Source of the DNA: an uncultured Nitratifractor sp.
GTDB taxonomy: Bacteria > Campylobacterota > Campylobacteria > Campylobacterales > Sulfurovaceae
Length of the DNA: 52,366 nt
Assembly: GCA_913054475.1 (NCBI GenBank)
Contig: CAJXJF010000004.1
Location: 1 to 52,366, forward strand
Direction of reading: 5' to 3'
Part shown: positions 17,976 through 21,180 of the stretch, in pieces
How the letters are laid out: each line of letters begins with the position of its first letter
Numbering within the stretch: position 1 is the first letter of the stretch
Position numbers and translations under genes: made by a program
Notes under the pieces: generated by a model
Seen by the model: the letters and a program-made list of their open reading frames with translations, nothing else
Told to the model about the DNA's origin: nothing
Databases searched by the model: none

Positions 17976-18449
17976 TTATCTCCTTCTCAGCCTCTGGGCA
18001 TGGGTTATGGCTATAGCCATGGCATCGGTGATATCCAGAGGTTTGATCTCCTTTTTGATAGCGAGTATCTTTCTTACCATGAAGGCGACCTGCTCCTTGC
18101 CTGCCTTGCCGTTTCCGGTAAGAGCCTTTTTGACCTGCAAAGGGGTGTATTCGTGGAAATAGCCTATCTCCTGTAGAATCTTCAGACTCAAAGCTCCCCT
18201 GAACTGGGCGAGTTTCAAGACACTTTTGGGATTGTAGGCATAGAAGATATCCTCTATGGCGACCTCGTCTATACTCTCTTTTTTCAGAATGATATCCAGC
18301 CCCTCTATCAACTCCACTATCTGCTCCTGAAGAGTTTCGCTTCTGATTCTGAGAACTCCGGCTTCGAGCAGTATCATTTTTCTGTTTTCGAGTCTCAAAA
18401 TGCAGTATCCCAGATTTCTGCTTCCCGGATCTATTCCCAAAATATTCAC
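17976..18449 (-). CDS. ruvC: Crossover junction endodeoxyribonuclease RuvC
   Basis: 157 residues. Resolves Holliday junctions with RuvAB in recombinational repair. The four acidic catalytic residues are all present and at near-canonical positions: Asp7 (GIDPG), Glu66, Asp139 and Asp142. The start is GTG with GAGAGGTG upstream. Its leader is the DnaA-box cluster, so the 5' end of ruvC abuts the origin and points away from dnaA. Confidence 0.95.
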
Positions 18450-18569
18450 TTTTCACCTCTCTTTTCACAATGTGAAAAACTTTTTCACCTCGAACGATAC
18501 CCTTGGATTTTCCGTATTTTAGTCCTTTTTGGATAAAATCGAATAAATATTCACATTTCGGCATGTGAA
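18445..18569. other. oriC1: oriC1: DnaA-box cluster upstream of dnaA
   Basis: Seven TTCAC/GTGAA cores occur in 125 bp: 18445-18449, 18452-18456, 18464-18468, 18472-18476 (inverted), 18484-18488, 18550-18554 and 18565-18569 (inverted). Most are preceded by T-runs, as in TTTTTCAC. TTCAC is the known core of epsilonproteobacterial DnaA boxes. With the cluster after dnaA this forms a bipartite origin, as described in Helicobacter. The same stretch must carry the divergent ruvC and dnaA promoters, implying DnaA autoregulation. Confidence 0.8.
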
Positions 18570-18591
18570 AAAGTGGAGGAATAGAGAGAAG

Positions 18592-19926
18592 ATGAATATC
18601 GGTCAAAAGGTGTTGAAGGAGCTGGAGAAGGAGATAAGCGTAAACGAGTACCGAAGATATATCCAAAGGCTGGAGTACGATACCGAACTCTCCAGAAGCG
18701 ATATAGCTATCTTCAGAGCGCCGAACATCTTCACTGCGAAATGGGTGGAGACGAAATACAGCAAAAGTATCGCACATCTCTTCGAACTGGAAAACGGTAT
18801 AAAACCCAAGGTCGAAATAACGGCCTCGAAGAGGAAGGAGGGGAGCCTACTCAGTCATAAAAATATGCAAAAAGAGAGCAAAAGCGGCAAAAGTACCCAT
18901 CTGAACCCATCTTTTACCTTCGACAGTTTCGTCGTGGGAAGCTCCAACCAGTTTGCCTACACCACCGCCAGGAGCGTAGCGGAAAAACCCGGGATACAGT
19001 ACAACCCTCTCTTCATATACGGAGGAGTCGGCCTCGGAAAGACCCACCTTCTGCAGGCGATTGGAAACTACCGTACCCAATTCGGAGATACCGTGATATA
19101 TACGACACTCGAACAGTTCATGAACAAATTCATCTCCTCTCTTCAATCCCGTACGATGGACAGATTCAGAGATACCTTCAGACACTGCGACCTGCTTCTG
19201 ATAGACGATATACAGTTTCTAAGCCGTAAGGAGCAGACACAGGAGGAGCTCTTTCACACCTTCAACGAACTCCACTCCCTCAACAGACAGATAGTACTGA
19301 CATCGGATAGAGCTCCCAAGAAGATAGCCGGACTCGTGGACAGACTGAGAAGCCGTTTCGAGATGGGACTCACCGCAGATATCCAGCCTCCCGAACTGGA
19401 GACCAAGATAGCCATCATACAGAAGAAGTGCGAACTCGACGGCATCAGACTCGACAGGGATATCATCAACTTCATCGCCACCCATATGGGAGACAATATA
19501 AGAGAGATAGAGGGGACCATAATCAAACTCAACGCCATGAGTACGATGCTCAATCAGGAGATAACACCCGAATTCGCCAAAAATGCCGTCAGGGACCAGC
19601 TGAAGGAGAAGCAGGAGAATATCACCATAGACGATATCGTGGGTATTGTCGCCAGAGAGTTGAATGTCAAACCCTCCGACATCAAGTCGAAAAAGAGAAA
19701 CAAGAATGTGGTCAACGCCAGGAGAATCGTCATCTATCTCGCCAGAAACCTGACTCCCAACTCCATGCCCCAGATAGCCCTCTATTTCGGGATGAAAGAC
19801 CATACGGCAGTCAGTAAAAACATGAAGAAGATAAACGAGATAGTCGAAAACGACGAAAACTTCAAAGTGCTCCTCGAAGAGCTCTCCAACAAGGTGGGAA
19901 GCAGCCATCGCAAGAGCGACATATAA
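18592..19926 (+). CDS. dnaA: Chromosomal replication initiator protein DnaA
   Basis: 444 residues. AAA+ protein that binds DnaA boxes and opens the origin. Domain I (about 1-75) binds partner proteins; a short Lys/Ser-rich domain II follows (about 80-105). Domain III holds Walker A GGVGLGKT (144-151) and the LLIDDIQFL Walker B. Domain IV ends with the helix-turn-helix signature KDHTAVSKN (Asp403-His404-Thr405). The ATG at 18592 is chosen over an in-frame GTG at 18565 because it gives the family N-terminus MNIGQKV and follows GGAGGA; the GTG would lie inside a DnaA box. Confidence 0.97.
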   Translation: MNIGQKVLKELEKEISVNEYRRYIQRLEYDTELSRSDIAIFRAPNIFTAKWVETKYSKSIAHLFELENGIKPKVEITASKRKEGSLLSHKNMQKESKSGKSTHLNPSFTFDSFVVGSSNQFAYTTARSVAEKPGIQYNPLFIYGGVGLGKTHLLQAIGNYRTQFGDTVIYTTLEQFMNKFISSLQSRTMDRFRDTFRHCDLLLIDDIQFLSRKEQTQEELFHTFNELHSLNRQIVLTSDRAPKKIAGLVDRLRSRFEMGLTADIQPPELETKIAIIQKKCELDGIRLDRDIINFIATHMGDNIREIEGTIIKLNAMSTMLNQEITPEFAKNAVRDQLKEKQENITIDDIVGIVARELNVKPSDIKSKKRNKNVVNARRIVIYLARNLTPNSMPQIALYFGMKDHTAVSKNMKKINEIVENDENFKVLLEELSNKVGSSHRKSDI

Positions 19927-19981
19927 CTGCGCAGACCCCCATATCGCTAAATTGAATGAAAATGAGGATATAATTTCAGCA

Positions 19982-20115
19982 GTGAATAAATGTGAAAGAA
20001 GAGGGTGAAGTAAGCCATTCGATATTTACGGTGTGGAGGGCTCTTCAGAGCTTTTTCACACTTTCCGGGGAAACAACTACTACTTCTACTCAAATATTAA
20101 ATAAAGAGGGAGATC
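19982..20115. other. oriC2: oriC2: DnaA boxes, DnaA-trios and AT-rich unwinding element
   Basis: The dnaA-dnaN gap holds four DnaA-box cores: GTGAA at 19982-19986, 19992-19996 and 20005-20009, and TTCAC at 20055-20059 within TTTTTCACA. The last box is followed by a GC-rich spacer (TCCGGGG, 20064-20070), then CTACTACTTCTACT (20077-20090), which on the lower strand reads 3'-GAT-GAT-GAA-GAT-5', and then AT-rich DNA (20091-20104). This order, box then GC spacer then DnaA-trios then AT-rich DNA, is that of the basal unwinding system. It marks the likely start of strand opening. Confidence 0.8.
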
Positions 20116-21180
20116 ATGAAGATCAAAGTACAGAAACAGATTCTCGAATCCATACTGATAAGTGTACAGCCGTTTCTCGAAAAAAAAGACGATACCCAGA
20201 TAACATCACATATACTGATAGAGAGCTATGAAGGCAGGAGCGTAATAAGGGCTACTGACCATGAGATAGGATTACAGATAGAGACGGAGCGCTTCGAAAC
20301 CATCGAAGGTGGCTCCTTTACCGCAAACGGCAAGAAACTGCTCGACATAATAAGAATCCTCAGAGATGAAGAGATAAGGCTGGAGACCGAAGATTCACAT
20401 CTCAAAGTGATACAGAAACGCTCCAAATTCAAACTGCCCATATTCGACCCGCAAGCCTATCCCTCCTTTCCCGTCAAAGACGAAAAACCCAAAATATCTC
20501 TCGATTCGTACTCTCTGATCAAGAATTTCAAAAAAATCTCTCCCGCCATAGATACCAACAATCCCAAGCATGAACTCAACGGAGCCCTCATAAATATAAA
20601 GAGAGAATATACCGATATAGTGGGAACCGACACCAAAAGGCTCGCCATAGTGAAGATGGAGAATGTATCGGAAAAGGAACTGGCTCTCATACTTCCCAAA
20701 AAAGCCATTATGGAGATACAGAAACTCTTCCTCGACAAGATAGAGATATACTACGACGAGAATACACTGATTATCACGAACGAGGACCTATTTTTCTACA
20801 CAAGGCTCATAAACGGCAAATATCCGGACTACGAAAGGATAATCCCCAAAAGCCTCAAACATGAAATCGAGCTCCCCAAGAAGGAGATGATAGACGCTAT
20901 ACGGATGATAACGACTATATCCCACGAGATAAGAATAAGCATAGAGCCCGACCGTATAGTCTTCGACTCCCTCTCCACCGATGTGGAGGCCAAGACCGAA
21001 ATCGAGAGAGTCACCAATATAGAACAAAGCTACCAGCTGACGATAAACAGCAGGCATATGCTCGATTTCCTCTCACAGAGCGAAAGTGAGAGTTTCATAC
21101 TCGGAATCAACGAAGCGACGACACCCTTCATGGTGAAGGATGGAAATTTCATAACGATAATAATGCCTATAGTCATATGA
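20116..21180 (+). CDS. dnaN: DNA polymerase III beta subunit (sliding clamp)
   Basis: 354 residues, normal for the family. Forms the ring clamp that tethers DNA polymerase III. Three repeated clamp domains are visible by length and pattern (e.g. [36 protein letters not shown]). GAGGGAG precedes the ATG by 5 nt. It follows oriC2, and its stop overlaps an ATG just before pyrG. gyrB, often next in bacteria, is not here. Confidence 0.96.

Follow-up and report, generated by a model that had tools for sequence, protein, structure and literature searches.

The dnaA locus and its DnaA boxes

The window, by which the whole analysed stretch of 52,366 nucleotides is meant, contains ruvC (on the minus strand), dnaA, dnaN and pyrG in this order. 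DnaA-box-like sites with the core TTCAC flank dnaA: seven lie in the ruvC–dnaA gap (oriC1) and four in the 189-bp dnaA–dnaN gap (oriC2). Three of the latter four point outward, and the DUE-proximal one points to a row of pyrimidine triplets. Box clusters in both gaps, with a DUE-facing proximal box and outward-facing distal boxes, are the arrangement by which the bipartite oriC of Campylobacterota is recognised, and outward-facing distal oriC2 boxes have been published for Arcobacter, Sulfurimonas and Wolinella (PMC5043019). The features of the locus are the following.

17976–18449, minus strand: ruvC
18442–18572, oriC1: seven DnaA-box-like 9-mers in the ruvC–dnaA gap, on the plus strand at 18442, 18449, 18461, 18481 and 18547, on the minus strand at 18471–18479 and 18564–18572
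18592–19926, plus strand: dnaA (NCBIfam TIGR00362)
19981–19989 (TTATTCACT), 19991–19999 (TCTTTCACA) and 20004–20012 (TACTTCACC), minus strand: outward-facing, DUE-distal DnaA-box-like sites of oriC2
20052–20060, plus strand: DUE-proximal DnaA box TTTTTCACA, facing the predicted opening site, read directly from the sequence
20060–20068, plus strand: position of the second tandem DnaA box, decayed to ACTTTCCGG (1-bp overlap with the first box; core TTCCG instead of TTCA[C/T])
20061–20076: 16-nt spacer CTTTCCGGGGAAACAA, 50% GC
20065–20070, plus strand: GC-rich cluster CCGGGG within the spacer, read directly from the sequence
20074–20076, plus strand: slot 1 of the triplet register of the family, eroded to CAA, 13 nt from the box end, where relatives have CTA
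20077–20091, plus strand: DnaA-trio array CTACTACTTCTACTC, slots 2–6 (CTA CTA CTT CTA CTC), conserved in relatives
20077–20090: triplet stretch as given in the first-pass annotation, CTACTACTTCTACT
20091–20104: AT-rich continuation of the predicted opening region, CAAATATTAAATAA, 7% GC
20116–21180, plus strand: dnaN, starting 25 bp past the last triplet of the array

Every coordinate in the first-pass annotation proved exact to the base on direct reading of the sequence. A further tandem box upstream, CTCTTCAGA (20041–20049), was considered and dropped, as the homologous position in relatives is without a box. Within oriC1, two opposed DnaA boxes stand 1 bp apart near the ruvC start (18461–18469, plus; 18471–18479, minus), and a strong box just upstream of dnaA (18564–18572, minus) could possibly serve autoregulation. 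GC skew within the 52-kb window gave no clean origin mark.

Anatomy of the predicted opening site

Read 5' to 3', the site consists of TTTTTCACA CTTTCCGGGGAAA CAA CTA CTA CTT CTA CTC AAATATTAAATAAAGAGGGAGATC, followed by the dnaN start at 20116. The first-pass annotation had likened this succession of box, GC-rich spacer, triplets and AT-rich stretch to the basal unwinding system (BUS) of Bacillus subtilis incC (PMC6669920, PMC8287927, PMC10721633). The likeness holds in order, orientation, spacing limit, register, AT-rich flank, gene context and DnaA residues. The box fits TTWTNCACA as well as the Campylobacterota core TTCAC and has two mismatches to TTATCCACA, the most that the BUS definition allows. 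The lower strand of the array reads 3'-GAT GAT GAA GAT GAG-5', that is, five triplets against the BUS minimum of three consecutive 3'-NAN-5', and its first trio lies 16 bp from the box, exactly at the limit of the 0–16 bp permitted there. The AT-rich stretch stops just short of the dnaN ribosome-binding site. A TAA at 20098–20100 closes the reading frame that precedes dnaN, so the triplet array is not coding.

The same annotation described the module as complete. While the box, spacer, triplets and AT-rich stretch are indeed present, decay has affected the second DnaA box and slot 1 of the triplets, so that "complete" is too strong and the module comes to lie at the edge of the published 16-nt spacer limit. 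The window thus lacks the tandem co-oriented second box of the BUS; such a box is usual but not required (57% of predicted origins; PMC8287927), and its decay therefore does not exclude membership.

Compared with the BUS of B. subtilis, the site shares a co-oriented box, a short spacer with a GC cluster, lower-strand triplets resembling 3'-GAT-5', an AT-rich stretch and a position downstream of dnaA. It differs in that B. subtilis has two co-oriented boxes (6/7) where the second is decayed in the window, and in the box core, which is TCCAC in B. subtilis and TTCAC here. The protein is likewise similar. In an alignment to B. subtilis DnaA (PDB 8btg), the DnaA of the window keeps E174, N178, I181, R193, K213, E214, E219 and R255, equivalent to E183, N187, I190, R202, K222, E223, E228 and the arginine finger R264 of B. 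subtilis; both the residues for trio-base capture and the arginine finger expected of a BUS-type DnaA are thus in place. The capture residues are those that hold the trio bases in the structure of the B. subtilis BUS complex, in which N196 contacts the uncaptured third base (PMC10721633). Two positions are substituted, B. subtilis I193 by L184 and N196, unlike in the B. subtilis system, by R187. At residue 181, the position of I190, the window has Ile and most of the Campylobacterales DnaA sampled have Thr; alanine at I190, which contacts single-stranded DNA, is damaging in B. subtilis (PMC10721633).

Closer parallels are found within the phylum. The oriC2 of Helicobacter pylori, composed of the ts1/ts2 boxes, a GC-rich sequence and the DnaA-trio (PMC8235120), is similarly the opening half, downstream of dnaA, of a bipartite origin and has about five trios after the GC-rich sequence. 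Unlike the ts1–ts2 pair, the window has one clean box, 16 nt to the first good trio and dnaN immediately downstream. Opening in H. pylori depends on the trios and begins at the first of them (PMC8235120), and mutations of box and trios yielded no transformants (PMC8287927). The origins of Sulfurimonas denitrificans, Wolinella succinogenes and Arcobacter butzleri (PMC5043019) share the ruvC–dnaA–dnaN locus, the oriC1 and oriC2 halves, the outward distal boxes, a single strong proximal box towards the DUE and the trio motif. P1 mapping placed opening in the oriC2 of Arcobacter, Wolinella and Sulfurimonas, 8–18 bp from the last box (PMC5043019); the predicted site in the window is 13–16 bp from its DnaA box.

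Conservation and variation of the triplet register in Campylobacterales

The dnaA–dnaN gaps of 80 named loci, 11 genomes of the same genus and about 140 genomes sampled throughout the order were compared. The comparison is one within Campylobacterales, and a phylum-wide search added no outgroup order. Among named relatives, the closest carries the label Nitratifractor sp., with 85% identity in DnaA; the other close loci are mostly Sulfurovum. A box with a triplet array was present in 215 of 225 gaps. The first-pass annotation had named loss of the triplets in relatives as evidence against its reading; instead, about 200 related gaps retain them, spaced almost uniformly from the DnaA box. Some variation in this spacing exists across the order: among 188 distinct gaps it is 13 nt in 117, 12 in 37 (spread over several families), 16 in 24, 14 in six and 15 in four. 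As arrays were selected by triplets at slots 1 and 2, the conservation of these two slots is partly by construction, while slots 4 and 5 were left free. Slot 5, which played no part in the selection, carries CTA in 53% of 202 rows, compared with 0–1% at slots 6–8. Many members of families f12 and f9, which we infer to be Helicobacter-like and Campylobacter-like groups, have degenerate arrays or none, in agreement with the published description of the C. jejuni trio motif as degenerate (PMC6052347).

Relatives carry a second DnaA core 8 bp past the first, so that the boxes overlap by 1 bp, and 163 of 188 distinct relatives match TTCAC there at four or five of five positions; decay has gone further in ACTTTCCGG than in the second box of most of them. 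The array of the window begins one triplet late, at 16 rather than 13 nt, with its phase to the box kept. Most members of the same genus have a similarly eroded slot 1 (TAA, CGA, AGA) and an array 16 nt from the box. The same +3 shift occurs in f3, f8 and part of f17; to explain the 16-nt class, the dnaN tree requires about 13 changes. Judged from these sequences, the whole-triplet shift keeps phase, as it should if DnaA counts triplets from a set starting point, and the 12-nt spacers indicate that one-base changes between box and array also occur. Loss of the second box was considered as the cause of the 16-nt spacer and rejected: a 2 × 2 table gave p = 3e-4, but the association is carried largely by one family (f3). 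In L149 and L162 (f17) and L042 and L068 (f1), the second core is 9 bp from the first and the array shifts along, leaving 5 nt between second box and array. Since the array moves together with the second box, the register of the trios seems to be set by it.

A different kind of variation concerns the phase within the array. In 65 of 202 rows, about a third, one extra base follows slot 3 (CTACTACTA-N-NTACTA); in other rows slot 4 is not a trio though slot 5 is. Across the 202 rows, CTA starts at offsets 0, 3, 6, 9 and 12 and at 10, 13 and 16, and never at 8, 11, 14 or 15. The break is found in L007, L013, L026 and other Sulfurovum loci (a Sulfurovum-type array reads CTACTACTATCTACTA), as well as in L163, L168 and L173 (f15) and L117 (f17). 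It spans families f1, f15 and f17 with nine changes on the dnaN tree and nine on the DnaA tree, counts that come from FastTree trees with many weak forks and in which parsimony cannot separate gain from loss. The f15 members, which are probably Sulfurimonas-like, thus have a +1 break after the third trio, unlike the window, whose array is unbroken. In genus g2 of the family to which the window belongs, the dnaA–dnaN gap of L104 has a four-base-step array, CTAACTAACTATTACTAA, where its sister L120 has ATACTAATACTACTA; trio phase seems to be relaxed in this genus.

A change in DnaA specificity was examined as a basis of the +1 break and set aside. Of 65 phase-broken rows, 49 have Ser at residue 179, the neighbour of the conserved Asn178, where other rows mostly have Asp, Lys or Gln. 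Among independent pairs, however, the agreement holds for only about one in eight, and the phase-broken f15 has Asp, which points to shared descent; with descent allowed for, no DnaA residue was found to track the break. A literature search of incomplete coverage found no report of insertions within trio arrays. One interpretation, on which we are evenly divided, is that the Campylobacterales array is a five-slot footprint with a hinge, in which slots 1–3 and 5 are constrained and slot 4 is loose. The filament would take a 4-nt step between the third and fourth protomer, where the additional base would lie next to the third base that escapes capture, and the array would not need to keep strict triplet phase throughout. 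Such a base could plausibly find room there, as the third position of each triplet points away from the pocket in the B. subtilis structure (PMC10721633). Alternatively, function may depend on three trios only, with a different role for the TACTA that follows. The lineage of the window appears to show a related freedom, having lost slot 1 and moved its array by exactly one triplet.

Alternative explanations and significance

Could the module be a chance match of a short pyrimidine run beside a common 5-mer core? A box followed within 16 nt by four YTD triplets occurs once in the 52 kb, at this site, with 0.17 expected per window in order-1 Markov sequences. Similarly, TTCAC N{6,17} (CTD)4 has a single match in the whole genome (1.74 Mb, 87 contigs), again here, while the same pattern read backwards has two. 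The motif alone is therefore a one-or-two-per-genome event and not improbable genome-wide. With one or two matches per 3.5 Mb of strand, however, the chance that one falls in the 189-bp dnaA–dnaN gap on this strand is about 1e-4, and coincidence is refuted by the comparative data, in which about 200 related gaps have the array in the corresponding position and slot 5 is conserved though unselected; its residual probability is negligible. Another explanation is that the triplets form a dnaN leader or promoter element kept for dnaN expression, next to a DnaA box that only autoregulates dnaN. The array does lie within the dnaN leader, ending 25 bp before the start, but it is anchored to the DnaA box and not to the gene: the distance from box end to ATG ranges from about 52 to 90 bp, that from box to array only from 12 to 16. 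Moreover, it follows the 1-bp displacement of the second box in the four loci described above. This explanation is thus very unlikely, though less remote than coincidence.

Marginally less probable still than a dnaN element is that the strands open in oriC1, with oriC2 merely the second DnaA-binding half. Thermodynamic stability discriminates poorly here. The least stable 28-bp stretch of the dnaA–dnaN gap, 20078–20105, is within the 0.16% least stable 28-mers of the window, but the best 28-mer of oriC1 is within the least stable 0.6%, oriC1 also has more boxes, and for 40-bp stretches the two are equally unstable. As oriC1 is nearly as unstable as oriC2, the predicted place of opening is based on homology to relatives in which opening has been mapped, and not on instability. 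All mapped relatives of the same layout open in oriC2 (PMC5043019, PMC8235120), and no combination of box and trio array occurs in oriC1 or elsewhere in the genome. Taken together, and by analogy with these relatives, the dnaA–dnaN site is most probably (roughly 93%) oriC2, the unwinding half of a bipartite Campylobacterota origin, with a BUS-type module at which opening is predicted. The class has already been published for H. pylori, Arcobacter, Wolinella and Sulfurimonas, and the site adds one more member.

If H. pylori (PMC8235120, PMC8287927) and B. subtilis are valid guides to DnaA binding, unwinding and the direction of assembly, DnaA on the double-stranded box at 20052–20060 would set polarity and register. 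Protomers would then assemble along the lower strand, capturing bases of successive triplets resembling 3'-GAT-5' between 20077 and 20091, each DnaA pair taking two bases of a triplet. Opening of the duplex would start near 20074, run through the AT-rich stretch and end near 20104, providing single-stranded DNA for helicase loading. Given CAA in slot 1 and a decayed second box, the first protomer step is probably one triplet further from the box (16 nt, not 13), a trait that would be specific to the lineage of the window.

The opening site of an uncultured Campylobacterota lineage is thereby predicted to within about 30 bp, and the trio model has passed an order-wide test. The comparative set separates what is fixed (distance from the second box, slots 1–3 and slot 5) from what varies (slot 4, one-base breaks and loss of slot 1). 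The phase-broken arrays in relatives are more novel than the module of the window itself. If functional, the phase break would imply tolerance of a 4-nt step beyond the third trio, and published trio searches demanding unbroken triplets will undercount such arrays. The variants in relatives offer natural material on how strictly the DnaA filament counts in threes.
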